Source of the DNA: Phycobacter azelaicus | GTDB lineage: Bacteria; Pseudomonadota; Alphaproteobacteria; Rhodobacterales; Rhodobacteraceae | DNA: 64,000 nucleotides | Assembly: GCF_014884385.1 (NCBI RefSeq) | Contig: NZ_WKFH01000003.1 | Location: 248,001-312,000 of the forward strand | Reading direction: 5' to 3' | The notes under the pieces: generated by a model | The model's database searches: none | What the model saw: the letters and a program-made list of their open reading frames with translations, nothing else | What the model was told of the DNA's origin: nothing | Shown: positions 22,840 through 37,464 of the stretch, piece by piece | Position numbering within the stretch: the first letter of the stretch is position 1 | Layout of the letters: each line of letters starts with the position of its first letter | Made by a program: the position numbers and the translations under genes

Positions 22840-23164
22840 TTCTCCCCCTATTTTTGAATCGCCAGAAAAGGACCTCGCGCAGTGCACGAAAACGACTTAC
22901 CCCGTCATGATGGGACTACGACGATCGGCCCAAATGAGCCGCAGGGGCGAAAAAATCAGGTCATGTCAAAGGAGTATAGCTTGCGAGCAGAAAACCCCCG
23001 CGTCAAAACTTTAAACCTATCGTAAAAAATCTGCCCAGATCATACTGGCCTGCAACCGGCGCATTGCGCAGTTTGGTTTTGAGACGAGCGAAGAACCGTT
23101 GGTAGAGGTGGTCCTGCTTTTTCGACCAGAATGCAGCCCAGTTAAGGTGGATCAGGGTTTCACA

Positions 23165-23995
23165 TCAGGCTGCCATTTTCATGGGTTCCGGTTTGCTGAC
23201 ATGGACCTCTTCGGGGGTCAATATGCCATGGGTCGAGTGGGGCCGCTCGGCGTTGTAATAGGCCAGCCATTTCCCAATACCGTCTCGGGCCTGTGACCCG
23301 GTCTCGAAGGCGCGCAGGTAGACGCATTCGTATTTCAACGACCGCCACAACCGCTCGATCATGCGATTGTCGATCCAGCGGCCCTTGCCATCCATCGATA
23401 TCTTCACCTTGGCCTCCTTCAGCTCATCGGTCCAGTCGCTGCTGGTGAACTGCGATCCCTGATCGGTGTTGAAGATCTCCGGCGGGCCATATTTGGCCAG
23501 CGCCTCTTTCAGCGCCGCGACACAGAAGTCTGCCTCCAAGGTATTCGACAGCCGCCAGGCCAGCACCTTGCGGCTATACCAGTCCATGATCGCCACCAGA
23601 TACAGGAACCCCCGCTCCATCCGGATATAGGTGATGTCGGCGCACCAGACCTGGTTGGGCCGGTTGATCGCCAGTCCCTTGAGCAGGTAGGGATAGATCT
23701 TGTGCGCCGGGTGCTTCTTGCTGGTGTTGGGCTCCTGGTAGATCGGCACCAACCGCATCAGGCGCATCAATCGCCGCACACGATGGCGGCCACATTTGTG
23801 ACCCTGCCGCTTCATGTGCCGCGCCATCTGGCGAGAGCCATACCACGGGGTCTCCAGGAACTGCTTGTCGATGATCTCCATGAAGGCCAGGTTCTCAGCG
23901 CTCTCCCCCTTGGGCCGGTAATACAGCGTCGAGCGCGACAGTTGCAGCAGCCTGCATTGCCGCCGCTGGCTCAGCTCATGATCCTTGCTCACCAT
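23165..23995 (-). CDS. IS3-family transposase OrfB (DDE integrase core)
   Basis: 276 residues with an HTH_21-like start (RQCRLLQLSRSTLYYRP) and an rve integrase core. The DDE residues are visible in QVWCADITYI, IFNTDQGSQFTS and DNRMIERLWRSLKYE. It is made as an OrfAB fusion by slippage on the six-A run that ends orfA (23995-24000); on its own it would start at the ATG inside that overlap. The frame is intact, so the copy may be active. Confidence 0.93.
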   Translation of the reverse strand: MVSKDHELSQRRQCRLLQLSRSTLYYRPKGESAENLAFMEIIDKQFLETPWYGSRQMARHMKRQGHKCGRHRVRRLMRLMRLVPIYQEPNTSKKHPAHKIYPYLLKGLAINRPNQVWCADITYIRMERGFLYLVAIMDWYSRKVLAWRLSNTLEADFCVAALKEALAKYGPPEIFNTDQGSQFTSSDWTDELKEAKVKISMDGKGRWIDNRMIERLWRSLKYECVYLRAFETGSQARDGIGKWLAYYNAERPHSTHGILTPEEVHVSKPEPMKMAA

Positions 23996-24297
23996 TTTTT
24001 GCCTCGCGTCCCGAGCAGTTGAACCGAGGCATTCGCTAAAAAATCCCGTTCCACCACCAGCTGCCCGATCTTCGAATGCAGCTTCTCGATCTCTGCCTCC
24101 TTCCCCTTCCCGGGATCAGCGCCTCGCCGGGTGAACGCCGTGGCCATGTTCTCGATCGCCGCCCGCTTCCACGTGCTGATCTGGTTCGGATGCACGCCAT
24201 ACTTCTTCGACAGCTCGGCCAGCGTCATCTCTTCTCGGATCGCTTCAAGCGCAACCTTCGCCTTGAACTCAGGCGTATGCGTCTTTCTCTTTGCCAT
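23989..24297 (-). CDS. IS3-family transposase OrfA
   Basis: 102 residues, HTH-type DNA-binding protein (TPEFKAKVALEAIREEMTLAELSKKYGVHPNQISTWKRAA) followed by a leucine-zipper-like helix (EAEIEKLHSKIGQLVVERDFL). It recognises the element ends. It ends RGKKW at the A-rich slippery site where ribosomes shift -1 into orfB. Confidence 0.92.
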   Translation of the reverse strand: MAKRKTHTPEFKAKVALEAIREEMTLAELSKKYGVHPNQISTWKRAAIENMATAFTRRGADPGKGKEAEIEKLHSKIGQLVVERDFLANASVQLLGTRGKKW

Positions 24298-24559
24298 TTC
24301 GGATCGTCTCTCTCGTCATACGATCCACCTTAACAACTGGTCCGAATTTCCGCGACCACCTCTGGTTCATTCCAGAGTCTCAAATCGGCCTTCCTGATAA
24401 CACCCCCAAAAGTGACTCACTCGGTCACATTAGTGATCCTTTGAGGCTACGAAATACCCCCATGTCTGCTTCGCGCGAGACGAAGCAATGCTACCCTAGA
24501 TTGTGACTCTCGCAAAGATCGTTGAACCACGGGTTTCGCGCGCGCTAGGGGGCTCTGCT

Positions 24560-25009
24560 GTACAAATCCGTATGTGGGCGCACTTCCCCTTTTCCGGGAC
24601 GTGTTAGTTCTATTGGCATTGTGACAGGTATGCCAAGACCCCTGTAGCGGTTGAGAACCGCAACGCGGACCTGATCCGTTGCGATAGGGTCGGCTCACAT
24701 TGAGGGATCTCTGGCGGCGGCAGAACGTGCTGGAATCCGGCACCGTCCAGTCCAATCCGACCAGCCGCAGCAGGCTCTCCACGAACTCTGCCGTCTGCCG
24801 AAGCGGCATGCCGAACTGCACCTTTTTCGGCAGGCAGTCTGGATCGCAGGGTCGCTGAAATGGCACTGACGCCCGCGTTTGCTGGTCGGCGGCAGTGTCC
24901 AAACCATGTCGGGATCTAACCAGATGAACAGCGATCCGCGACTATTGAAGCTGTCATTGCAAACCGAGCAATTTGTCGTCTTGTGCTTCGTGGGGGCCCA
25001 GCGGCTCAT
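24560..25009 (-). pseudogene. IS5-family transposase remnant, frameshifted and internally deleted
   Basis: The minus strand encodes recognisable pieces of an IS5-type transposase. The N-terminal piece (KHKTTNCSVCNDSF...SRGSLFIWLDPDMVW, FSDPAIQT) runs from 25009. The frame then shifts into KKVQFGMPLRQTAEFVESLLRLVGLDWTVPDSSTFCRRQ...PYRNGSG, and in another frame directly into VRVAVLNRYRGLGIPVT, which belongs near the C-terminus. The catalytic middle, including the DDE residues, is missing. It is therefore dead and marks an old insertion at the edge of the island. Confidence 0.75.
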
Positions 25010-25278
25010 GACCTCCAGCTACCATACTGGCTTCACAAGGCGCATCCCACTCAGATGATTTGGGCAACAAAGCCCGCAAGGCCCTATCTTCGTGTTATGA
25101 GTCGACTGGCCTGTCTAAAACGTTTTCAATACGCCTCGACATCAATGGCATCAGATCGGCCACCAAATGTCTCGAAAAGGCGAAACCTATCGGCACTATG
25201 TTGCCGCATAGCAGCTTTAAACTGAACAGTTCTACCGTGTTTTAAAGGAACGGGACCCTCGGCGTCCCCCCAAAAAAA

Positions 25279-25302
25279 CCACCGCTGACTTCTCAGCGGT
25301 GG
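25279..25302 (-). terminator. Strong rho-independent terminator
   Basis: A perfect ten-base-pair stem (CCACCGCTGA/TCAGCGGTGG, loop CTTC) is followed on the minus strand by seven T residues. It would stop transcripts leaving the tniQ side of the island. On the plus strand it is followed by CAAACTTTT and may also work weakly. Confidence 0.8.
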
Positions 25303-25384
25303 CAAACTTTTGGTGGTCAGAACTGCAGCCTCAACTCGTCAAATTGCAGACTGATGCGGGCTTTCACACAAAACAACGTGTAAA

Positions 25385-25492
25385 TGAAAGCAAATACCGG
25401 CCACTTCGCAACGCTAAGCCATTGAAAAAACACACTGTGGCCAGCGCGACTTTCAATTAATTTGGCCACTCTGAAAGCACATATTGGCCACT
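25385..25492 (+). repeat. Array of transposase-binding-like repeats (left end)
   Basis: Two 21-bp copies of the pattern TGAAAGCA-N6-GGCCACT sit at 25385-25405 and 25472-25492, with two degenerate GGCC-cored copies between (GGCC at 25439 and 25464). All point the same way. The spacing of about one to four helical turns is typical of end-binding arrays of Tn7/Tn5053-type transposons. A related copy in opposite orientation occurs at 37416-37436, just before nrdJ. The outermost end base on this side is not identified. Confidence 0.65.
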
Positions 25493-25553
25493 TGGCTTGC
25501 CGCCGAAGTATTCCAGTGATTTTCCCATGAATATTATTGGCATACAAGAAAAA

Positions 25554-25576
25554 AGCCGCCCCGGACCGGGGCGGCT
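25554..25576 (-). terminator. Rho-independent terminator after tniQ
   Basis: A GC-rich palindrome (AGCCGCCCCGG/CCGGGGCGGCT around one base) is followed on the minus strand by TTTTTTC. It lies 44 bp past the tniQ stop codon and is the natural terminator of the transposition operon. Confidence 0.85.
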
Positions 25577-25619
25577 CTTCTCTATACAGTAGGTGCACTT
25601 CGCTGAGTCATTTTATTAC

Positions 25620-26847
25620 TCACCATGGCGGCAAAGCTGCTGTGCGATACAAGTCGATCCCGACCGCGGCCTCAGAGATCGCGGGTTTCACCCTATGCCT
25701 CTTCAGCCAGAAAAACTTTTCTCTCGCCGAAAACCCGGTGAGCTCTCTGATGCGACGATCCGTGGCGAAGGTGGCGTGGAACTCTGCGACTTTTTGGGGA
25801 TCGAAACGGATGATGTCGCGCCCACCGTTGATCCCGCTCACCTTGAATGACGGCAGCCGAAGGTCGACATCATCCAGCTTTGTCAACTCCACGCAGGCTT
25901 CTCGCGAAGCCTTCAACAAGCTGCAGACCTGTTCATTCGACCAGCCAGTTAGAACCCGTTTCGCTACAGCTTTCACTTCTTCCGAAGATAGCCTCAGACC
26001 ACCGATGCCGCGCTCACCTTCTGCGAGAGAGACATTTTTCAAGTGACCTCCAAGAACCAGGCCAAGAACCTGAATTGCTGAGAGCCGGGTCCGCTCGGCC
26101 ACCTTCGAAAGCGGCGCGAGTTCAAGCTCTGAGCCTGACACCGACTGAGCGACCGCTTCCAACTCGTCCAATATGCGCTGAACATCCTCCGACAAGACCG
26201 TCTTATGCGCCCTTCCTCGCGAGTCAGTATGGTCATGGTAGATCAGCTCCAGCCAACGATCTGCTACCAAGTTTTCAGCGAGGGGCCTGGAGCAGTTCAA
26301 GAGGTCGGGCAGGTCCTTCAGCTTCTCGGTCTTTTTGAAGCGACGAGCGACCTCCTCCCCCGCAAGTGCGGGGAACGCGAAATGCGATGGGGCTTTGGGG
26401 GCGATCACACGCGCCGTCGCAAGGAGGTTGCGCAAGGAACGGGTGTCGAGCTGCTCCTGCTTGGCCAAAGAAGTCACCGTGTGCAAACGACGACGATGCA
26501 ATTCTGCGCCCAAGATTTTCTCGCCAGGCGCCATGGGCAGATGGTCCCATATGAACTCTCGAGTGATCCGAACGATATCGCCTGGCTCCTTCAGCGATTT
26601 GGAGTGCGCCAATGCGTTATAGAAACAGCCAAACAGACTGCGGGTGCCAGGTTTCTTGCCCGTCTCGGCGAATTCGCGGAGACGATGCGTGAGAGCCTCT
26701 CGGATGCCAGTCTCACCGCGTGACGTAAAATGAAAGCCTATCGCCCCAGCATGGTCCCATTGGTCAACAGTGAGCTCTGGAAGCAACTGCTTCGGCCCGT
26801 AAGCGACAAGAACACCAAGAAGTTCTGTGCCACGCGCTGCTTGATCC
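25620..26847 (-). pseudogene. tniQ: TniQ-family transposition protein, 5' end lost to an IS
   Basis: About 409 codons of a TniQ/TnsD-type target-selection protein: GTELLGVLVAYGPKQLLPELT...WDHAGAIGFHFTSRGETGIREAL, LFGCFYNALAHSKSLKEPGDI, then KTLRNLLATARVI-like and helical C-terminal parts. The family's N-terminal zinc-binding part with PDE(S)LxSWLxR is missing because the IS at 26848 replaces it. An open frame continues 14 nt into the IS from a GTG, so a truncated protein might be made. Assignment is from recalled family patterns. It lies in line with the tnsA-like remnant across the IS. Confidence 0.65.
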
Positions 26848-26903
26848 TGATCCTCCCCCACTGAAGTGGTCCGCCGTTATGTTTAGGAAAACGGAGGATC
26901 AGA

Positions 26904-27182
26904 ATGGCTACGAAGAGACACAAGCCGGAAGAGATTGTCACGAAGCTGCGGCAGGTTGAAGTGCTTGTCGGGCAAGGCATGGCGCGGGCGGATGCGATCC
27001 GCGAGGTTCGCATTACTGAGCAGACCTATTATCGCTGGCGCAAGAAATACGGCGGTATGGGAGCCGACCAACTCAGGGAACTGAAGCGCCTCCAGAAAGA
27101 GAACGAACGGTTGAGAAAAGCCGTCTCGGATCTGACTTTGGACAAGCTGATCCTGGCGGAGGCGGCAAAGGGAAACTTTTGA
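26904..27182 (+). CDS. IS407-like transposase OrfA, copy 1
   Basis: 92 residues. Helix-turn-helix (PEEIVTKLRQVEVLVGQGMARADAIREVRITEQTYYRWRKKYGG) plus a leucine-rich helix (LKRLQKENERLRKAVSDLTLDKLIL) ending AAKGNF. It binds the IS ends. It overlaps orfB by four bases at ACTTTTGAG, the likely -1 frameshift site. Confidence 0.95.
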   Translation: MATKRHKPEEIVTKLRQVEVLVGQGMARADAIREVRITEQTYYRWRKKYGGMGADQLRELKRLQKENERLRKAVSDLTLDKLILAEAAKGNF

Positions 27183-28030
27183 GCCCCGCTCGCCGCCGTG
27201 CCTGCATCGATCACGTTCGCACCCGGTTCCATCTGTCCGAGAGACGCGCCTGCCGTGTCTTGGGTCAGCACCGATCCACGCAGAGGAAAGTGCCGCATGG
27301 CCGTGCCGATGAGGAGCGTCTGGTCGCGGACATGGTCGAACTGGCGCGGCAGTATGGCCGTTACGGCTATCGTCGGATCGCGGCTTTGCTGAGAGATGCG
27401 GGCTGGGAGGTGAACGACAAGCGGGTCGAGCGCCTATGGCGACGAGAGGGGCTGAAAGTGCCAATGAAGCAACCGAAGAAGGGACGGCTCTGGCTTTATG
27501 ACGGATCCTGTGTCCGGCTGCGCCCTGAGTATCGCAACCACGTCTGGAGCTATGACTTTGTCCACTGCCGGACGGAGGACGGAAAGGTCTTCCGGACGCT
27601 CAACATCTTGGACGAGCACAGTCGGGAATGCTTGGCGATCAAGGTGAAGCGCAAGCTGAACTCGGGTGACGTGATCGATGCCTTGAGCGACCTGTTCATC
27701 ATGCGGGGTGTGCCGGATTACATCCGGTCTGACAACGGCCCGGAGTTCGTGGCTCAGGCCGTTCAAGATTGGATCAGGGCCGTCGGCGCCAAGACCGCCT
27801 ACATCGCGCCCGGGTCACCTTGGGAGAACGGCTACTGCGAAAGCCTCAATGCCAGGTTCCGCGATGAACTGCTCAACGGAGAAGTCTTCTACAGCCTTCG
27901 GGAAGCGGAAATCCTGATCGAACAATGGAGGAAACACTACAATACCAAACGACCACATAGTGCCTTGGGCTATCGCCCTCCCGCCCCGGAAACCATCATC
28001 CCGATGGACCCGAGACCGGTCATGCACTAA
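27179..28030 (+). CDS. IS407-like transposase OrfB, copy 1
   Basis: 283 residues, rve-type DDE integrase. Acidic residues are seen in VWSYDFVHCRTEDG, YIRSDNGPEF and SPWENGYCESLNARFRDELLN. It ends in the family tail KRPHSALGYRPPAPE. Produced as an OrfAB fusion; its own first codon would be a TTG inside the overlap. The frame is intact. Confidence 0.95.
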   Translation: MSPARRRACIDHVRTRFHLSERRACRVLGQHRSTQRKVPHGRADEERLVADMVELARQYGRYGYRRIAALLRDAGWEVNDKRVERLWRREGLKVPMKQPKKGRLWLYDGSCVRLRPEYRNHVWSYDFVHCRTEDGKVFRTLNILDEHSRECLAIKVKRKLNSGDVIDALSDLFIMRGVPDYIRSDNGPEFVAQAVQDWIRAVGAKTAYIAPGSPWENGYCESLNARFRDELLNGEVFYSLREAEILIEQWRKHYNTKRPHSALGYRPPAPETIIPMDPRPVMH

Positions 28031-28064
28031 CAATCAAAACGGACCACTCAGGTGGGGCTGATCA

Positions 28065-28632
28065 GTCCAGCATGGCCGATCATCTCGATCAGACGCCCCA
28101 GTTCGCACGGCCCTACCATCGAACACACCGCGCGCCGCGCAGCAGCGTCAACTTCCGGCTCCGGCATGCGCATCTCGTGTAAAAGCTCAGCATTGTAGAC
28201 CTCGATTGGATCAAGGTCTTCTTCCGTCATCACGACAACACGGTCGGCAAAGGATGACGGCACCTGCCTTGCAATAACCCGCAGCTCATCATCGACCCTT
28301 GGGCTTGCCGCCCGTTCGGCAGCTTTCACCATGATCGCGATCCGCTTCCCAGAGCGCTGGGTGGCGCGATAGTCGAAGAAATGCGTTGCGGGTCTGCCGT
28401 CAGCATTCCGATAGAAAAAGGGCACCTGGTTTTCCAAGCTCGCGATGTCTTTTCGTGCCTGAACCACCAGACCAACCCTAAGCTCATAGAGGGATTCGAA
28501 GTTCATCCCCTCTCCCTCATCCGGGCCCAATACAAGCTGGCCGGTGAAGTGCTCACGCCGCCCCTTGGCGACCTTGCGTGCATCAACAGCCGGCCGCGGA
28601 AGGCGAACGCCCCCATCTGCTAATTCCATCAT
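28065..28632 (-). pseudogene. TnsA-like endonuclease, 3' end lost to an IS
   Basis: 189 codons remain, opening MMELADGGVRLPRPAVDARKV after GAGAGGG. The pattern of a TnsA-type restriction-like nuclease is visible: Glu46 in FESLYELRVGL, QVPFFYRN, Asp87 in THFFDYRAT and Lys103 in RIAIMVK (the usual acidic residue of E-x-K is replaced). Such proteins cut the 5' strands in Tn7-like transposition and lie first in tnsA-tniA-tniB-tniQ operons. The IS at 28064 removes its C-terminus. Function is inferred from motif pattern and from tniQ downstream. Confidence 0.55.
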
Positions 28633-28702
28633 TGCGAAACCCTCTCGCTGTGGGCGTTTGCGCCCCACTGATCAGCCCCACCTGAGTGGTCCGTTTTGAT
28701 TG

Positions 28703-29554
28703 TTAGTGCATGACCGGTCTCGGGTCCATCGGGATGATGGTTTCCGGGGCGGGAGGGCGATAGCCCAAGGCACTATGTGGTCGTTTGGTATTGTAGTGTT
28801 TCCTCCATTGTTCGATCAGGATTTCCGCTTCCCGAAGGCTGTAGAAGACTTCTCCGTTGAGCAGTTCATCGCGGAACCTGGCATTGAGGCTTTCGCAGTA
28901 GCCGTTCTCCCAAGGTGACCCGGGCGCGATGTAGGCGGTCTTGGCGCCGACGGCCCTGATCCAATCTTGAACGGCCTGAGCCACGAACTCCGGGCCGTTG
29001 TCAGACCGGATGTAATCCGGCACACCCCGCATGATGAACAGGTCGCTCAAGGCATCGATCACGTCACCCGAGTTCAGCTTGCGCTTCACCTTGATCGCCA
29101 AGCATTCCCGACTGTGCTCGTCCAAGATGTTGAGCGTCCGGAAGACCTTTCCGTCCTCCGTCCGGCAGTGGACAAAGTCATAGCTCCAGACGTGGTTGCG
29201 ATACTCAGGGCGCAGCCGGACACAGGATCCGTCATAAAGCCAGAGCCGTCCCTTCTTCGGTTGCTTCATTGGCACTTTCAGCCCCTCTCGTCGCCATAGG
29301 CGCTCGACCCGCTTGTCGTTCACCTCCCAGCCCGCATCTCTCAGCAAAGCCGCGATCCGACGATAGCCGTAACGGCCATACTGCCGCGCCAGTTCGACCA
29401 TGTCCGCGACCAGACGCTCCTCATCGGCACGGCCATGCGGCACCTTCCTCTGCGTGGATCGGTGCTGACCCAAGACACGGCAGGCGCGTCTCTCGGACAG
29501 ATGGAACCGGGTGCGAACGTGATCGATGCAGGCACGGCGGCGAGCGGGGCTCAA
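28703..29554 (-). CDS. IS407-like transposase OrfB, copy 2
   Basis: 283 residues, identical in protein sequence to copy 1, with the same DDE residues. It overlaps its orfA by four bases at the ACTTTTGAG shift site. Intact, so either copy could supply transposase. Confidence 0.95.
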   Translation of the reverse strand: MSPARRRACIDHVRTRFHLSERRACRVLGQHRSTQRKVPHGRADEERLVADMVELARQYGRYGYRRIAALLRDAGWEVNDKRVERLWRREGLKVPMKQPKKGRLWLYDGSCVRLRPEYRNHVWSYDFVHCRTEDGKVFRTLNILDEHSRECLAIKVKRKLNSGDVIDALSDLFIMRGVPDYIRSDNGPEFVAQAVQDWIRAVGAKTAYIAPGSPWENGYCESLNARFRDELLNGEVFYSLREAEILIEQWRKHYNTKRPHSALGYRPPAPETIIPMDPRPVMH

Positions 29555-29829
29555 AAGTTTCCCTTTGCCGCCTCCGCCAGGATCAGCTTGTCCAAAGTCA
29601 GATCCGAGACGGCTTTTCTCAACCGTTCGTTCTCTTTCTGGAGGCGCTTCAGTTCCCTGAGTTGGTCGGTTCCCATACCGCCGTATTTCTTGCGCCAGCG
29701 ATAATAGGTCTGCTCAGTAATGCGAACCTCGCGGATCGCATCCGCCCGCGCCATGCCTTGCCCGACAAGCACTTCAACCTGCCGCAGCTTCGTGACAATC
29801 TCTTCCGGCTTGTGTCTCTTCGTAGCCAT
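29551..29829 (-). CDS. IS407-like transposase OrfA, copy 2
   Basis: 92 residues, differing from copy 1 at one position (GGMGTDQL instead of GGMGADQL). HTH plus leucine-rich helix as in copy 1. Confidence 0.95.
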   Translation of the reverse strand: MATKRHKPEEIVTKLRQVEVLVGQGMARADAIREVRITEQTYYRWRKKYGGMGTDQLRELKRLQKENERLRKAVSDLTLDKLILAEAAKGNF

Positions 29830-30374
29830 TCTGATCCTCCGTTTTCCTAAACATAACGGCGGACCACTTCAGTGGGGGAGGATCAGGCCCTCGTGGCCTC
29901 TGGACTGTCGAGAAGATTGGCCTCTTTAGAAATTTCCGAAGAAATTCCTAAAACTTTTTTCTGTTTCCTTAAGGCTTTGTTTTTCTGAAGGATAATCAAG
30001 AGAAAGAGCGCGTTCGGCTTCCTGAGCCCGCTATCAAACTCGCCGAGAGTCGATGAGCAGACGACCGGAGCCGACTGGACGCGTCGAGATCAACAAGGCA
30101 CCCTGGCGTGCCTGTGACCCACTCCGAGGCGTAACCGCCCGCCCCAAACACGAACAGCCGATTATCTGAGCACGCCCGAGCCGTGAGCAACATCTGGCGC
30201 TCGTCACCTCGGAGGGCCACGCGTTCGAGCCCATACTCAAGCGTCGGCTCCAGGCTGGGAACGCTGAGCTAATCTACGGGGGCGGCATATGGCCGAAGAC
30301 GTTGAGGGCGCTAAACATCAATGTCGCCTTACAGAACTGCATGTTTAATTCAAAAGAGCAGGCAGTGCGTTTCC

Positions 30375-30428
30375 GGGATCTCCATTGTCGAGTGCGCATT
30401 GAATGAGCGCATCGACAATGGAGCTCCC
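30375..30428. repeat. Long imperfect inverted repeat (about 22-bp arms)
   Basis: Arms GGGATCTCCATTGTCGA-TGCGC and GCGCA-TCGACAATGGAGCTCCC pair with one mismatch and one bulged base around the nine-base loop ATTGAATGA. It is outside any gene. There is no T tract on the plus strand, so it is not a simple terminator for that strand. Confidence 0.7.
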
Positions 30429-30559
30429 AGAAAATCGCTGATCAAAAATAAGGAAAATCGAAAACATTACTAAACTCGTTTCGTCTCTCGCGAAACAGCC
30501 AACCTTGTTATCGGAGCAAGCAAACAAACAAACACAAAGCGATGAGCGGAAATCTTGAA

Positions 30560-30578
30560 GCTGCCCATACTGGGCAGC
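30560..30578 (+). promoter_or_regulatory. Perfect hairpin/operator just before a ribosome site
   Basis: GCTGCCCA-TAC-TGGGCAGC lies four bases before the GGAGAG ribosome site of the next gene. It could be a repressor palindrome or an RNA hairpin that affects translation. Confidence 0.45.
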
Positions 30579-30594
30579 ACTGTAGGAGAGCATT

Positions 30595-30933
30595 ATGCCC
30601 CGTGATTTCACTCTAACCCTTCCGCAAACCGCTTTTATTCTCAACCATGGCGAGGCTCTATGCTCCGCCACGGCATTGCTGGGCGGCTATGCCGCCGAGC
30701 GTCGGTTCAAAAACCTCTACAACGATATGTGCCTGCGTTCATCGACGACCCGCCGTCTCGAACGCGAGCTGGATTGGCTCGAAGACCTGCTTGGGCTCGA
30801 ACACGTTCACGATTTCGATCGTATCGAGGCAGAACTCTTCGCCGAGATCGATCCCAGCGACCCCGTGGTCGCAGAGATCTGCTTGCTCTTGGACGGCCTG
30901 CGAGATGCCCGGAGGGCTTCCCGGGCCGCATAA
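30595..30933 (+). CDS. Small acidic protein of unknown function
   Basis: 112 residues, not recognised. It starts MPRDFTLTLPQTAFIL with GTAGGAGAG nicely placed upstream, which supports a real gene. The sequence is helical and rich in Glu, Asp and Leu (RRLERELDWLEDLLGLEHVHDFDRIEAELFAEIDPSDP), with no membrane segment or signal peptide. It is the first of two small genes in the island cargo, each flanked by perfect hairpins. It could be a passenger or a mobile-element accessory protein. Confidence 0.6.
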   Translation: MPRDFTLTLPQTAFILNHGEALCSATALLGGYAAERRFKNLYNDMCLRSSTTRRLERELDWLEDLLGLEHVHDFDRIEAELFAEIDPSDPVVAEICLLLDGLRDARRASRAA

Positions 30934-30939
30934 ACACCC

Positions 30940-30960
30940 CTGGCGCGCAACGCGCGCCAG
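30940..30960 (+). promoter_or_regulatory. Perfect hairpin between the two small cargo genes
   Basis: CTGGCGCGC-AAC-GCGCGCCAG, a nine-base-pair stem with a three-base loop, starts seven bases past the stop codon of the first small gene. It has no T tract. It may stabilise or attenuate the transcript. Confidence 0.45.
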
Positions 30961-31007
30961 CTTGAAGCATCCTCCAAAACGGGTGATGCAGACGAAGAGG
31001 AATCGCA

Positions 31008-31460
31008 ATGCATGAGACCGCCACCGTCCGCCAAGACGGACTCGAAAGGCTTGCAGCGCAAGCCATTGCCAACCATCGACGCTTCGCGCACAGCTACAAA
31101 GATCGGCGTCACCTCGTCACCTATGCGAACCGGACCGGATTGGATCAACTGGTCAAGGCCAGTCCGGAAGACCTGTTCGCACAGCACACGCTTGCCGAAG
31201 CCCAAGAGCTCATCTTTCGTCTCGCAGACGATGTCGCGCAAAACGGCGGCGTGCCCCAGGTCGAGCGCACCGAATATGGAGATGCGCATCTCACCGGTGG
31301 CACGGAAGCAAGCAAACATCTGCAGATCATCGCCGATCGTTTGCGCAGCTATCTCGACCTCGGCTGGCAGGTGCACGATCGCTTGCTTGCTGAGAGGCTG
31401 CTGAAATCGGCTCCGGCGGAGGGTTCAGCAACCTTATCTCGCCCCACAACATTGGCTTGA
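31008..31460 (+). CDS. Hypothetical protein, island cargo
   Basis: 150 residues, not recognised. It opens MHETATVRQDGLERLAAQAIANHRRFAHSYKDRRHLVTYANRTGLDQLVKA and contains a helical middle (EAQELIFRLADDVAQNGG) and TEASKHLQIIADRLRSYLDLGW. GAAGAGGAA lies before the ATG. It is soluble by appearance. It is 74 bp downstream of the previous small gene on the same strand, so they may share a transcript. The codon usage is high-GC, unlike the large gene that follows, so the cargo may have mixed origins. Confidence 0.6.
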   Translation: MHETATVRQDGLERLAAQAIANHRRFAHSYKDRRHLVTYANRTGLDQLVKASPEDLFAQHTLAEAQELIFRLADDVAQNGGVPQVERTEYGDAHLTGGTEASKHLQIIADRLRSYLDLGWQVHDRLLAERLLKSAPAEGSATLSRPTTLA

Positions 31461-31470
31461 GCGTCATCAA

Positions 31471-31494
31471 GTTGCGGGCCCTTGGGCCTGCAAC
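31471..31494 (+). terminator. Hairpin after the second small cargo gene
   Basis: GTTGCGGGCC and GGCCTGCAAC pair with one mismatch ten bases past the stop codon; only CCCTTAACTT follows, so termination would be weak. It is the third hairpin in a hairpin-gene-hairpin-gene-hairpin pattern. Confidence 0.4.
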
Positions 31495-31801
31495 CCTTAA
31501 CTTCTGCAGCGCGCCGATCGCCATCGGAAAAACCGGTCCATTGCGGGCTTCGACCTTTTCTACCCTTACGCCTCTTTGGGCGTGCCCACCTCATACGCAG
31601 TAGTCGCGATTTCAAGTCTACCGCTTGACTCTGCCAGCGCCTTTACGTCGCATTTTCAACGCGGTAGGTTCAATACAACGATTAGCCGTAGGAGTTTCAT
31701 CGGGCTTTGAATGCGTTCATCTGCCTAAAGCGTCACACATCCAATGGCGTATTAACCACCAAACTCAAGCCCATTCGTTCAAACTGGATATTAAGAAGAA
31801 A

Positions 31802-34800
31802 ATGCCTATTTTCGAGATCGAAAAAGATGACCTTCTTGGCCTTGATGATGGTCAGTTAGAGGAGCTGATTGCACGCCTTTGTGAGGCCGAAATCGGCGCA
31901 AAAAACCATGCAATTAGCAGCGTTCGATGGGGTGGGAGTCTTACGGCGGCGGATGGCGGTGTCGACGTTCGCGTAACAGTCAAAGACAGCACCTTTACCG
32001 GAGATTTTATCAGACGTAGGGATACGGTCTTTCAGGCTAAAGTGCCATCCATGGCGCAGGCTGCCATACAGAAAGAGATTTCAGGCAAGGATACCAGCAA
32101 GGATCTATTTCAAGATTTAGCTAAATCTTGTGGCGCATACATCATCGTCAGTCTGAAAGATGACCTTGCGCCTATCAAGTTGGCAGAACGGCGCAGCCTC
32201 ATGTCTGCCGAAGTAGATAAACTTGTTGCGCCAAATTCCGTTGAATTGGATTTCTTTGATCGGTCGACACTGCATCAGTGGCTTCGTCAGCATATATCCG
32301 TCCAGCTATGGGTTCGCCGTGCTTTGGGAAAACCGCTCACAGGATGGAGACCATTTGAGCGTTGGACGAATGTCCCGTGTAATTCTGACGACACCTTGAT
32401 CGTCGGAGAAGGGCTATATGTATCGCTTCCCGGAAAGAACTCCGATCTGTCAATAGCTGAAGGGATACCCGCGGTCCGCGACCTGATTGTGACCTCTTCG
32501 AAATCTATCAGGGTCGCAGGGTTGTCAGGGGTTGGTAAGACCCGGTTTGTTCAGGCTCTTTTTGAAGAAGGGTTGGAAACGGAAACGCTTGATCGCACCA
32601 AGGTGATCTACGGAGATATTGGCTTCGGCGTAGAGCCATCGGCAAACGTATTAATTGACTCACTGATTGCTGAGAAAAGAGACGCAATAGTCGTGCTCGA
32701 CAACTGTGCAAAGGAAGAACATTCATTCATAGCCAACCGGATCGCTCGGACGAAGTCATCGATTAAACTGATCACGATTGAATACGATATCCGTGACGAT
32801 ACGCCACAAACCACGGAAGTGGTGCGATTGACCCCGCGCGGAACTGAGATCACAGAGAAATTGGTCGCAAGGCGATATCCTCAGCTTGGCATTCTTAACG
32901 CACGGCGTATTGCGGATTTCTCAGGCGGAAATGCTCGGCTTGCCCTGGCTCTCGCGGATGCCTTGCCTGACAACGTCAGTCTGGCTGGCTTGTCCGACGA
33001 AGAACTCTTTGAGAGATTGTTCGAACAAAGACACGAGGCTGACAAAAACCTTCGGGAACAGGCGGAAGTCCTGTCCTTAGTCTACTCTTTTTCAACGGCA
33101 GAAGACGAAGAGGGTGTCAACGAACTTGCCGTCTTGGGTGACCTGTGTGAGGTGAGCGGACGGAGAATGGGGCGCGCGTCAAACACTCTGCTCGAGCGGC
33201 AAATCGCGCAAAAGCGGGGTCGCTGGCGCGCGGTTCTGCCCCACGCAATCGCGAACCGGTTGGCAGCCGATGCATTGCGGCACATCCCGATTGACGATGT
33301 TCTGCGAACGTTCGAAGAGAACGCCGGAGAACGAATGCTGAAATCGTTCAGCCGAAGACTTGGTTTCCTACATACAAGCCCTCAAGCGCGAACAATCGCG
33401 AGGCGATGGCTTCAACCGACTGGCCTGCTACCCAAAGTAATGCAGCTCAATAAACTTGGGGCGACGATGTTAGACAACATTGCTCCAATCGACTGCGAAA
33501 CCGTTCTGGCACGTTTTGAAAGCGAAGAAGCTGAAATTATTGCCGCAGTGAATGATATCTATAAGCGAACGGAACTTCGGCGTGTGATTTCACTGATCGG
33601 CAAGATCGCCTATGAGCCGGAACATTTTGACAGATCCGCCTCCTTACTCCTCAAAATTGCGGATGAGGAGAGTGGCGAAGATCGATCAGATGGGGCTCGA
33701 AAACGTGTCCAAGGATTCTTCCAAATCCGTGGGTCAGGAACTCATGCAACGCTTGAACAGCGTGTTAACGTGCTTGAGACTTGCCTGGCGGATAGTAAAA
33801 GGCACGCATTTGCCCTCGATTGCTTGGAGTCGGGACTTGAAACCCAACATTTTGGGAACACAAATCTGATAGATATAGAGTTTGGCGCACGTCCACGTGA
33901 CTATGGGGCCCGACCTTATGGCGACGAAGCATTTACTTGGCTGTCTACGTTTCTGACTATTGCCGCGCAAATGGCGCTCTCGAGCATTCCCGCTGATCGC
34001 AAGCCAACTCGACGCATCATCGCAGCGCAATTTAGTGGGTTGTGGACTGTCGAAAGCCTGCGACCAGTGCTGGTCGAGCTTGGCGAACAATTACATGCAG
34101 ATGGTGGATGGTTAGAAGGCTGGCGCGCCGTGAAGGGCAAGCTTCACTACGATACGCTGCGATCAAGTCGATCGGGACGGACGGCAAAAGAAGACCGAGA
34201 GCTGGTCAAGCTATGCGAACTACTTGCCCCATCAGACCTGGAGGGACGAGTTCGGGCTATCGCACTCGCGGAAGGGCATCGTATCTTCGCCTTGGATGAA
34301 GAGTTCGATCACGACGATCCGCAAAAATATGAATCGTCTCGAAAACGGCTTGTCGAAGAGGCGTTTCAGCTTGGTCGGGACGTAGCAACCAATCCCGCTG
34401 TATTTGACGCTGTCGCGGATGATTTCTTCGAGCAAGCTCACGGTCCCAATCGATTTTCTTTCGGGCGTGGATTGGCGGCAGCATCCAGCGATCGACTTGG
34501 GCTCTGGCACAATCTCGTAAAGCGTATAAGAGCGTTAGGTTGCACGAACTTCAATGATTGCGTGTTGTCCGGTTTTCTCCGAGAGGTATCGCAGGTCGAA
34601 CCAGATCTGGCCCAAGCAATCTTGGATGAAAGCGCTAAAGACGAGCATCTTCGACACAGAACAGTAGGGCTCATTCCAGCTGATAATTTTTCTCGCGAGG
34701 ACTTTCATAGATGCGAGCGAGTTTTCGACGCGATAGGTCTCGAACTGTGGGGCGTGGATACCTTGCTATGGCGGGATAGCTCCGCCTCTATAAGTAAAGA

Positions 34801-35647
34801 GGATAAGAGCAGGCTGGCCAAAAAAGTATTGGCTGAAGAGGGTGGCGCATCTGTCCTTCTGCATGCCTTCAGTATGATGCTGCATGGAGCTGACCGCTCG
34901 GTTGATACCCTCGGCCAAGACCTCCGAGCGCTGGCTATCAAGGCTTCTGCAGTCGCAATGAGAAGCGATGAGAGCGATCCAGGAGGAACAAGGGACTACG
35001 ATCTCGAGCAGACATTAACCTCTGCATTAGCTTACCACGACAATGACGCTGTAGAAGCGGAACTACTGGATAGCCTCTTCTCAAGAATGGAAAGGCGATA
35101 TGGCCTCTTCCCGCACTACGAAAAGGCAATACAAGTGCTTGCGAAAGCACGGCCAGATGCCTTCCTGGACCGACTAATGTCATATGCTGGCAGGAAAGAC
35201 GATGAAGAGCTCCACTGGGTGGACAACTCATTCGGGGAAAACGCTCCTTTGGACGGGATCGACCCAACAGAATTGGCTGATTGGTGCAGCAAGGGAAACG
35301 ACATCCGCCGGTGGAGACTTATTGGCCACGCTATTTCCGTTTTTGAGAAGGAAAAAGAAGGTGGCGTGAGGTTGTCGGAACAAGCGCAAGCACTTGTCAG
35401 ACTGTGTCCAGAACCGGAGGCGATTATCGGGCGATTTGGCCTTCATCTAAGCCCAAGCTCATGGTCTGGAAATAGGTCGGTGCACATTGAACAAAGAGCT
35501 GCCGCACTGAGTGAGCTATTGAACAGTGAGGATGCCCGAATAGTGGCCGCAACCGAAAAGCTTCTCACCTTTGCAAAAGAGGTTTCGGAAAAAGAAAAAA
35601 AGCGGGAGAAAGCGGAAGATGCGGCTAGAGAACAAACTTTCGAATGA
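31802..35647 (+). CDS. Nuclease-STAND NTPase protein, candidate anti-phage defence
   Basis: 1281 residues from the ATG after AAGAAG; an in-frame extension of 59 codons to 31625 has no coding character. N-terminal residues 1-180 look like a PD-(D/E)xK (Mrr-like) nuclease: WGGSLTAADGGVDVRV with Asp55, then VFQAK (Gln78-Lys80) and GAYIIVS. An NTPase module follows: Walker A GLSGVGKT (240-247) and Walker B AIVVLDNC (Asp300). The rest, about 900 residues, is helical and probably a repeat sensor. This nuclease-NTPase-sensor order is that of STAND defence proteins such as Avs. Function is inferred; no phage sensing can be read from sequence. Lower GC than the core genes suggests transfer. Confidence 0.7.
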   Translation: MPIFEIEKDDLLGLDDGQLEELIARLCEAEIGAKNHAISSVRWGGSLTAADGGVDVRVTVKDSTFTGDFIRRRDTVFQAKVPSMAQAAIQKEISGKDTSKDLFQDLAKSCGAYIIVSLKDDLAPIKLAERRSLMSAEVDKLVAPNSVELDFFDRSTLHQWLRQHISVQLWVRRALGKPLTGWRPFERWTNVPCNSDDTLIVGEGLYVSLPGKNSDLSIAEGIPAVRDLIVTSSKSIRVAGLSGVGKTRFVQALFEEGLETETLDRTKVIYGDIGFGVEPSANVLIDSLIAEKRDAIVVLDNCAKEEHSFIANRIARTKSSIKLITIEYDIRDDTPQTTEVVRLTPRGTEITEKLVARRYPQLGILNARRIADFSGGNARLALALADALPDNVSLAGLSDEELFERLFEQRHEADKNLREQAEVLSLVYSFSTAEDEEGVNELAVLGDLCEVSGRRMGRASNTLLERQIAQKRGRWRAVLPHAIANRLAADALRHIPIDDVLRTFEENAGERMLKSFSRRLGFLHTSPQARTIARRWLQPTGLLPKVMQLNKLGATMLDNIAPIDCETVLARFESEEAEIIAAVNDIYKRTELRRVISLIGKIAYEPEHFDRSASLLLKIADEESGEDRSDGARKRVQGFFQIRGSGTHATLEQRVNVLETCLADSKRHAFALDCLESGLETQHFGNTNLIDIEFGARPRDYGARPYGDEAFTWLSTFLTIAAQMALSSIPADRKPTRRIIAAQFSGLWTVESLRPVLVELGEQLHADGGWLEGWRAVKGKLHYDTLRSSRSGRTAKEDRELVKLCELLAPSDLEGRVRAIALAEGHRIFALDEEFDHDDPQKYESSRKRLVEEAFQLGRDVATNPAVFDAVADDFFEQAHGPNRFSFGRGLAAASSDRLGLWHNLVKRIRALGCTNFNDCVLSGFLREVSQVEPDLAQAILDESAKDEHLRHRTVGLIPADNFSREDFHRCERVFDAIGLELWGVDTLLWRDSSASISKEDKSRLAKKVLAEEGGASVLLHAFSMMLHGADRSVDTLGQDLRALAIKASAVAMRSDESDPGGTRDYDLEQTLTSALAYHDNDAVEAELLDSLFSRMERRYGLFPHYEKAIQVLAKARPDAFLDRLMSYAGRKDDEELHWVDNSFGENAPLDGIDPTELADWCSKGNDIRRWRLIGHAISVFEKEKEGGVRLSEQAQALVRLCPEPEAIIGRFGLHLSPSSWSGNRSVHIEQRAAALSELLNSEDARIVAATEKLLTFAKEVSEKEKKREKAEDAAREQTFE

Positions 35648-35952
35648 TTCCGAAATCTTGCGAGAGTCGTAGAAGCGCGAAGACCGAACCATCTGTTCGC
35701 ACGAAAATCGGAACCTTCGCGCCCCTCGCTTTTTGGAGGGTGGTTGCCGCGCTGAGTTTGACGATGAGAAGTTGTCCTAATGTTTATTTTCATGCTGCGA
35801 CCAGTGAGCCCTCGCACGTGTATAGAACGATGAGCCTCCGCAGCTGGGGAGCGTTGTCACCCACGGCCCGAATTCAAGATTGGTGCGGTCCGAAGTCAAA
35901 GTCTGCTTTACACATGAGCATCCATCAAGAATTTGGATGGAGTGCAATAGAG
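35648..35952. other. Intergenic stretch between convergent cargo genes
   Basis: About 300 bases between the ends of the large NTPase gene and the opposing gene. I see no gene, clear terminator or repeat in it. Confidence 0.5.
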
Positions 35953-36939
35953 CTATGTGGAAGGCGGCATTTCTTCGGACCATCTCATTTTAGGCGGCTT
36001 AGTTATTACTTGCTCCTTGTTTCGATCGTTAAACTCTTGCGCAAACTCTTCATCTGTCCACTCACCATCACCATAATCCGGGACATCCATCACTTCCAGA
36101 CCTTTACCCTCGACATTCCTCATTCCAAATAATGGTCCAACATAGGGAAAGTGGGGGGCGAAATAGGTTTGGACAAAGGGATGGTTCTCAAAATCCTTGG
36201 CCACAAACATGCTTCCTTTTGTTCCGCCGATGAACCAAGGGCGAGCACCCCATGTTCCAAATTGATAGTCGATGATTTTGCGCATATGGAGGATTGCACT
36301 AATAGAATCATCTCGCAATGTATCATAGGTGCTGGTATTGAAGTGAATTGATCGATGACGCAACTTTTTAAGCTGTTTAAATTCCTTCACCACTTCAGGT
36401 AGAAGAACACCCCAAGCCTCTAACGTAGATATTGGAACATCCCAGTTATCGAATGAGTTCTTTCGATAAACTTTTCGATACTCTTTAGTATTTTGGAACA
36501 TGGGACGCATATCGATAATAAGGTGATTCAGTATCCGCTCACCTAATGCACACGCTCCCACTAATGACGGGTAAAAATGCCCCATCACATATGCAGCACG
36601 CACCTGCGCAAAAAAATCATTGTGATATGAAATTACCGACATAGGCTTCGTGTCAATTTCAATAAATCTTTCTATTTTATCTCCCAATTCACTTTCACCA
36701 AACTCATGTGCAAGACCTCTTTTAATGCTCTCCTTATTTTCTAACCAACTTTCTTTTACTTCGAGGCTCCAGTGGTCCTCAATTTTAGTTCCCAAGAACG
36801 CAGCACGAGTATCGAAGTCGCCGGGCGTGCATAAAAGGCGGCGTCGACCTGCATCAGGAACAAAGGTTTTGAGCTCCTCAAACTTAAGTCCTTTTGGAGC
36901 TTGATAAATTGTAGGTCGGGTCAGGGCAAAAATAGTCAT
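35953..36939 (-). CDS. Hypothetical protein with HEPN-like R-x4-H motif
   Basis: 328 residues, not recognised as a named family. The middle is helical: SYHNDFFAQVRAAYVMGHFYPSLVGACALGERILNHLI, then KEFKQLKKLRHRSIHFNTSTY. The first helix resembles the core helix of HEPN-type proteins and RHRSIH fits the R-x4-6-H ribonuclease motif, with the histidine in a similar place after a basic helix. This is a weak structural guess. The gene is AT-rich compared with its chromosomal neighbours and convergent with the STAND gene, so it is probably island cargo, possibly also defence-related. Confidence 0.6.
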   Translation of the reverse strand: MTIFALTRPTIYQAPKGLKFEELKTFVPDAGRRRLLCTPGDFDTRAAFLGTKIEDHWSLEVKESWLENKESIKRGLAHEFGESELGDKIERFIEIDTKPMSVISYHNDFFAQVRAAYVMGHFYPSLVGACALGERILNHLIIDMRPMFQNTKEYRKVYRKNSFDNWDVPISTLEAWGVLLPEVVKEFKQLKKLRHRSIHFNTSTYDTLRDDSISAILHMRKIIDYQFGTWGARPWFIGGTKGSMFVAKDFENHPFVQTYFAPHFPYVGPLFGMRNVEGKGLEVMDVPDYGDGEWTDEEFAQEFNDRNKEQVITKPPKMRWSEEMPPST

Positions 36940-37350
36940 GTCTCACACTACGATAGAGCTTTTGTAATTTCATCCGCAAAGCGTTACCTGCCAGATTATA
37001 CTTCACGCTGCTTGGTCAAGATTTTGTGCTTAGCGGTCATTGATCCCAATCGCAGCTCCCCGCCCCTTCGTTCTGTTCAACTTGGCACCAAGCAGAATGG
37101 CTTGGCTGGGGTTTTCCAAGCGTTTTGGGATACAAAATCCAATCTCGTCAGCGGTTGCACTGTGGTGAGCGCCTGCCGAGGCAATCACATTAGCGGCCTG
37201 ACCTGAGCAGCTTCCGCTGGGTCGATACACGGTGACGAAGAATTTATCCGCTCCTTAGGCAAGACTGCCGCAGGTTTTTTGCGGCTGATCGATTAAAACC
37301 AACCACTGGTTATGGAGCTATCACGTCCTTCCACAACCGCAGAATACGCG

Positions 37351-37382
37351 AATGCCCACCGGTTTTCACGCCGGTGGGCATT
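37351..37382 (+). terminator. Stem-loop at the island's right edge
   Basis: AATGCCCACCGG and CCGGTGGGCATT form a perfect 12-bp stem around TTTTCACG, followed by TTGTG. It may serve as a bidirectional terminator near the end of nrdJ. Its right arm overlaps a degenerate copy of the end repeat. Confidence 0.5.
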
Positions 37383-37436
37383 TTGTGCTTTCAAAGAGGC
37401 CAATTTCCTACCGAAAATGGCCAATAGTTGCTTTCA
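37373..37436 (-). repeat. Inverted end repeats (right end) next to nrdJ
   Basis: Read on the minus strand, 37416-37436 is TGAAAGCA-N6-GGCCATT and 37373-37393 is a weaker TGAAAGCA-N6-GCCCACC. A GGCC half-site lies between (37398). They point opposite to the array at 25385-25492, as the two ends of one transposon should. CGACA at 37456-37460, five bases before the nrdJ stop, could be the terminal CGACA typical of Tn7/Tn5053 relatives; a matching TGTCG was not found at the left. Confidence 0.6.
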
Positions 37437-37464
37437 ACCACACAACGACCAGTCCCGACAGCCT

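Follow-up and report, generated by a model that had tools for sequence, protein, structure and literature searches.

The gene and its family

The window considered here, i.e., the whole stretch of 64,000 nucleotides from Phycobacter azelaicus, carries on its forward strand an open reading frame (ORF) of 1281 codons which, on full-length sequence comparison, is an intact member of a known family of defence proteins, the A component of the PD-λ-4 system. From the models and alignments described below, this protein is probably an Avs-like STAND receptor of the PD-λ-4 A family that acts as a one-protein phage defence.

The frame runs from an ATG to its stop exactly where a preliminary description of this DNA had placed it, and the motifs named there, D55, Q78-K80, GLSGVGKT (with K246) and VLDNC, are all at their positions (Table 1). 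An in-frame TTG at 31625 is a possible longer start; the alignment of relatives begins at the same M(P/A)IF as the ATG. The opposite strand, read in register, is rich in stops, and a chance frame can be dismissed because a database search with the protein recovered 4169 homologues at E <= 0.001 (7999 candidates scored).

The PD-Lambda-4_A profile of PADLOC matches the protein with 1258 bits, aligning residues 1-1281 with model positions 1-1283, and two shorter A models also match it. Scanning at E <= 1 brought up nothing beyond the PD-Lambda-4_A models, and in particular no Avs model, from a library which includes an Avs4 model and in which the other Avs types are presumably represented as well. 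The preliminary description could place the protein in no named Avs type; its suggestion that this might be a lesser-known family gives way to the PADLOC match and to a comparison with E. coli FEX669. There, the A gene has 1283 codons and precedes a B gene with 303, both matching PADLOC models end to end and having the lengths of the longest A model and of the B model, respectively. Over 1292 columns, i.e., along its whole length, the window protein shares 39% identity with this A protein; such E. coli reference loci were picked by homology and PADLOC match and may differ from the allele assayed by Vassallo et al. For the window protein Pfam and NCBIfam gave nothing above cut-off, NCBIfam having no model for it, and the family profile found no match among PDB sequences at E <= 1.

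Vassallo et al. (2022; PMC9519451) selected 21 systems and validated them by plaque assay, and a review table attributes PD-λ-4 to that study, listing it under the P-loop NTPases (PMC10952713). The accessible text of the original report neither names PD-λ-4 nor gives it a mechanism. It is the homology to PD-λ-4 A which upholds the role in phage defence already proposed for this gene. Separately, GiPD474, as presented in the accessible part of PMC12724215, was considered as a possible published relative.

Table 1. Positions, in window coordinates, of the PD-λ-4 A homologue, its predicted parts and the insertion that contains it
Feature	Position	Strand	Basis
PD-λ-4A homologue (nuclease-like N-terminus, STAND NTPase, helical-repeat C-terminus; 1281 aa)	31802..35647	+	ORF, PADLOC, alignments, models
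D51-G-G-V-D55, first half of PD-(D/E)xK-like motif	31952..31966	+	residue invariance
Q78-A-K80, second half of motif, on predicted strand 74-80	32033..32041	+	invariance and model
Walker A GLSGVGKT, residues 240-247 (K246)	32519..32542	+	sequence, alignment
Walker B-like VLDNC, residues 298-302 (D300)	32693..32707	+	sequence, alignment
NTPase region, about residues 178-408	32333..33025	+	structure comparison rows; Foldseek best match 6mfv, a STAND protein
Linker and HEAT/ARM-like helical-repeat region, about residues 409-1281; putative sensor	33026..35644	+	structure models
Insertion of about 14.4 kb relative to same-genus genome; left edge by eye, ~22846 to 23050	23050..37464		flank alignment with G001 (L034)

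Domain architecture

Inspection of the alignments shows that all 48 sequences of one set (residues 1-550 of the window protein and 47 members chosen from 120 listed) keep D51, G53, D55, Q78, K80, K246 and D300, and that D51, G52, G53, D55, Q78, K80 and E92 are likewise invariant in 14 of 14 diverse N-termini, which range down to 25% identity to that of the window protein. Further, the predicted strands 56-59, 74-80 and 112-117, together with the helices, occur in an order that fits the PD-(D/E)xK core, whose generally known topology was used for this comparison. The assignment of the N-terminus as a PD-(D/E)xK-like nuclease is supported by these invariant residues in combination with the predicted element order.

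The model of residues 301-1281 is nearly all helix with a mean predicted local distance difference test score (pLDDT) of 82.3, in agreement with the approximately 900 helical residues expected earlier, and Foldseek matches the NTPase model to STAND proteins. A STAND NTPase followed by a helical-repeat C-terminus is thereby supported by modelling. Most of the structural comparison rows span residues 178-408, with the N-terminus being seen within larger models. The nuclease-STAND layout given in the preliminary description is supported, with the nuclease part resting on motif and element order; the structure prediction proposed there as a check supported a STAND fold for the NTPase part and yielded, for the candidate nuclease core, a fitting element order.

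Several results weigh against this architecture. For the STAND and NLR rows the Foldseek template modelling scores are low (0.21 to 0.31), and in VIA-align the Avs4 row appears at rank 48, with a root mean square deviation of 16.9, amid many unrelated AAA proteins. At the N-terminus, the loop residues 44-52 preceding D55 are modelled with pLDDT < 50, Pfam has no nuclease family above cut-off for the window protein, and a profile of the 14 N-termini found no nuclease in the PDB, its hits being at chance level and the best of them a thermosome at E 0.02. Additionally, a common origin with the Avs4-type N-terminus found in some relatives (see below) is unsupported, for the profile of the DGGxD N-terminus aligns with proteins bearing that type at a probability of 12.4% and E 0.0024, the aligned part beginning at the QxK strand. 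The N-terminal points would suit a different view, in which the domain is related to the nuclease fold but binds nucleic acid or is otherwise non-catalytic, the protein having a mode of action other than DNA cleavage. However, such a view must accommodate the invariance of D51, D55, Q78 and K80 in both alignments, the fit of the predicted core elements, and the fact that in relatives the same place is occupied by the nuclease domain of Avs4, Avs1-4 being nucleases according to the accessible part of PMC12931631. We consider it quite improbable.

Exchange of effectors on a shared NTPase-sensor chassis

The functional case for a nuclease effector, and for an Avs-like receptor, draws on relatives in which other domains stand before the same NTPase and sensor. 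On a Moraxella osloensis plasmid (L052:3503-7249), the protein begins with an N-terminus matched by the PADLOC Avs4 model (225 bits), after which come an NTPase and a sensor of the PD-λ-4A kind. Residues 1-164 of this protein align with the sequence of the solved Avs4, 8dgf, at E 2.5e-43; for a profile of 13 proteins like it, the match to 8dgf covers profile positions 2-237 (E 8.2e-63). When the same 13-protein profile is compared with that of PD-λ-4A, the two align along 1083 columns that begin ahead of the NTPase and reach the C-terminus, with a probability of 100 and E 7e-104. A search with the Moraxella protein recovered 1126 proteins at E <= 0.001 (7999 scored), relatives being named from Psychrobacter and Acinetobacter. 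In three further loci (L016, L050, L051) a DUF676/alpha-beta hydrolase domain, above the Pfam cut-off, replaces the nuclease.

Among 238 proteins, retained from 253 after dropping 15 which were shorter than 1150 residues or without a Walker A motif near the start, 131 have the DxGxD...QxK nuclease motif, 104 are of the Avs4 type and 3 carry the hydrolase; these effector labels are by motif, and the counts reflect the two queries rather than a census. A tree of 54 of these proteins was built from their NTPase-sensor part alone, and on it the type of effector has to change 3 times, the possible minimum being 2. The Avs4 type by itself requires 2 changes, likewise when well-supported branches alone are considered, and at least 2 in all 200 bootstrap trees. 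This tree is unrooted, so that gain and loss are indistinguishable in it, 22 of its 54 rows have uneven letter composition, and there are long branches (L053, L017, L015, L054). The window protein falls within a clade whose 23 rows all belong to the DGGxD type.

The occurrence of three effector types on one NTPase-sensor chassis suggests that PD-λ-4A works in the manner of the Avs receptors. We regard it as rather likely that PD-λ-4A represents an unrecognised type of Avs-like receptor, which would have its own HEAT-like sensor, act without B, and have changed its effector at least three times, the Avs4 nuclease probably having been acquired on two occasions and the DUF676 hydrolase once; the window gene would then be an intact DGGxD-nuclease form. 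As a separate matter, two loci (L003, L044) encode large proteins, with open frames of 1357 and 1254 residues, which have only about 120 residues in common with PD-λ-4A (profile 553-680); this stretch may be a shared module.

The partner gene B

In the window genome the B model of PADLOC (PDLC03992) has 0 matches, whereas an E. coli control genome is positive, and B is present in only 3 of 27 A loci, all three from E. coli; several of these 27 loci are flanked by only ~1.5 kb, and some come from one and the same genome. For these reasons the window gene is, as far as profile searches go, a B-less variant. Since the frame at 35644-36132 overlaps the stop codon of A, it was tried as a candidate for B; it matches no family and is probably not a gene. 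Neither this frame nor the one at 35953-36939 has a PADLOC match.

The distribution of the two models points the same way. Across 385 Alphaproteobacteria genomes the A model occurs in 11 (the window genome included, and two over ~120 residues only), and the B model in 2, one of them weak; one genome with B (G105) also has A, on a different contig. None of 14 control genomes has the A model, and the E. coli control among them, being positive for B, therefore indicates that B-like genes also exist without A. Further, when ORFs of at least 80 residues were compared across 19 sources (18 loci and the insertion described below), A was the only family common to all, and every family present in more than 3 of the 19 was A or overlapped A; in one of these loci (L010) A is a fragment and in another (L009) it is split over two ORFs. 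The single-gene organisation proposed earlier is supported by this comparison.

The situation in E. coli itself is different and tells against this picture. Of 5426 E. coli genomes, 131 contain at least 80% of A at a single site (with an insertion sequence inside A in one listed row), 143 contain at least 80% of B, and 136 contain at least 80% of the stretch comprising the end of A together with B. The two therefore travel together there, and B may be required in that species. It could be held on this basis, and on that of PADLOC having a B model at all, that the protein requires a second component: B would be essential in E. coli, and in the window either an unrelated neighbour (e.g., the gene at 35953-36939 on the reverse strand) would substitute for it or the orphan would be non-functional. 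The rarity of B at A loci and in the class, its presence in a control genome where the A model is silent, and the lack of any other family recurring beside A speak against such a requirement. Additionally, in all but two of the 30 rows listed (147 records) the annotation divides the B stretch into two or three features, as compared with the 131 genomes that keep at least 80% of A; in EC71, for example, B is annotated as two overlapping frames and A as one, although single-frame copies of B occur. Hence, we take the two-component alternative to be unlikely, and A looks self-sufficient, with B as an attachment in E. coli. In the locus L018:12898-13810 the B gene of PD-λ-4 can be seen as it is annotated in many E. 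coli genomes, in two or three pieces with A whole.

Genomic context and distribution

The gene lies in an insertion: in the same-genus genome G001 the flanks corresponding to window positions 22846 and 37465 are only 455 bp apart, as against ~14.6 kb here. In two further genomes (G002, G003) the adjoining ribonucleotide reductase gene is present, and the 20 kb retrieved did not show the left flank of the window. The insertion adjoins this reductase gene and contains transposase genes, A and genes of no assigned function. Its guanine-plus-cytosine (GC) fraction is 0.54, and that of A 0.52, with flanks at 0.59 and 0.61. Two segments of 1221 bp (26846-28066 and 28667-29887), 100% identical, inverted and 600 bp apart, each carry an rve/HTH_21 transposase gene; the pair may represent a composite element or else a feature of the assembly. 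Directly after A lies the convergent 328-residue ORF at 35953-36939 (reverse strand; GC 0.45 for 35648-36940), which no family of Pfam, NCBIfam or PADLOC matches above cut-off. A 413-residue protein (25620-26861, reverse strand) also lacks a family above cut-off; it has a 30% identical relative in a Thioclava atlantica locus (L010), alongside the reductase gene and an A fragment of 225 residues, 86% identical, on the same side of that gene as in the window.

The gene had previously been taken for cargo of a Tn7-like element, which these data do not sustain: no Tns or Tni gene was found among the 37 of 217 listed window ORFs scanned with Pfam, the mobile genes seen being transposases of insertion-sequence type. 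At genome level, the TniQ search was silent in the window genome and in all 14 controls, and hence uninformative, while the TniB model was positive in 13 of the 14 controls and its two matches in the window genome lie outside the window.

The proximity to housekeeping genes (ribonucleotide reductase, hisG and a hisS-like gene) might be taken to indicate a housekeeping or regulatory STAND protein without an anti-phage role. However, the gene sits in an insertion absent from the same-genus genome, the family is patchy and occurs also on plasmids (39 of 72,556 plasmid records), and the protein is homologous to A of a published defence system; we hold a purely housekeeping role to be very improbable. 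In a phage collection no A homologue was found at E <= 1e-5, a search that did not extend to viral contigs. Defence surroundings, which the preliminary description had proposed checking, were recovered in part: of 14 regions fetched, 8 have a neighbour that by eye was taken for a defence or toxin-antitoxin gene, but six (L016, L019, L020, L050, which is unannotated, L052 and L054) were not counted as defence contexts and weigh on the other side. On a Leptospira plasmid (L053:52-3777), a second STAND-type protein, with weak sub-cut-off nSTAND5/nSTAND3 matches, lies directly upstream of the A homologue.

Proposed mechanism and comparison with known systems

For a one-protein Avs-like defence of this kind, we infer the biochemical steps, the trigger and the dispensability of B as follows. 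The C-terminal helical-repeat region would bind a phage protein, the central NTPase would bind ATP and thereby drive oligomerisation, and the N-terminal DGGxD...QxK nuclease domains so clustered would cut DNA and stop the infection, probably killing the cell.

The accessible review entry for PD-λ-4 offers little beyond the P-loop NTPase (PMC10952713), and the literature surveyed, judged largely from listings and with most subscription papers and bioRxiv outside its scope, nowhere calls the system Avs-like. Viewing its A protein as an Avs-like receptor would provide a testable mechanism for PD-λ-4. The gene taken alone is unsurprising, and the points of interest are how effectors have been exchanged and what B contributes. 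If detection rules require B for PD-λ-4, as we presume they may, then A-only carriers like the window gene would be overlooked.

In comparative terms, PD-λ-4 as found in E. coli is the closest counterpart, its A protein being a full-length homologue of the window protein and its B gene having no match in this genome. The N-terminus has the DGGxD...QxK residues and the predicted element order in common with the Mrr-like PD-(D/E)xK nucleases, and differs in that no solved nuclease matches it at the sequence level. The Avs/AVAST proteins have the same succession of effector, STAND NTPase and C-terminal sensor (layout as given in the accessible part of PMC12931631), although none of the Avs models of PADLOC matched the window protein at E <= 1. 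With Avs4 the likeness extends to the parts themselves, for its N-terminal nuclease sits on relatives of the PD-λ-4A chassis, and the union of an Avs4 effector with a sensor of another kind suggests that effectors pass from one receptor family to another.
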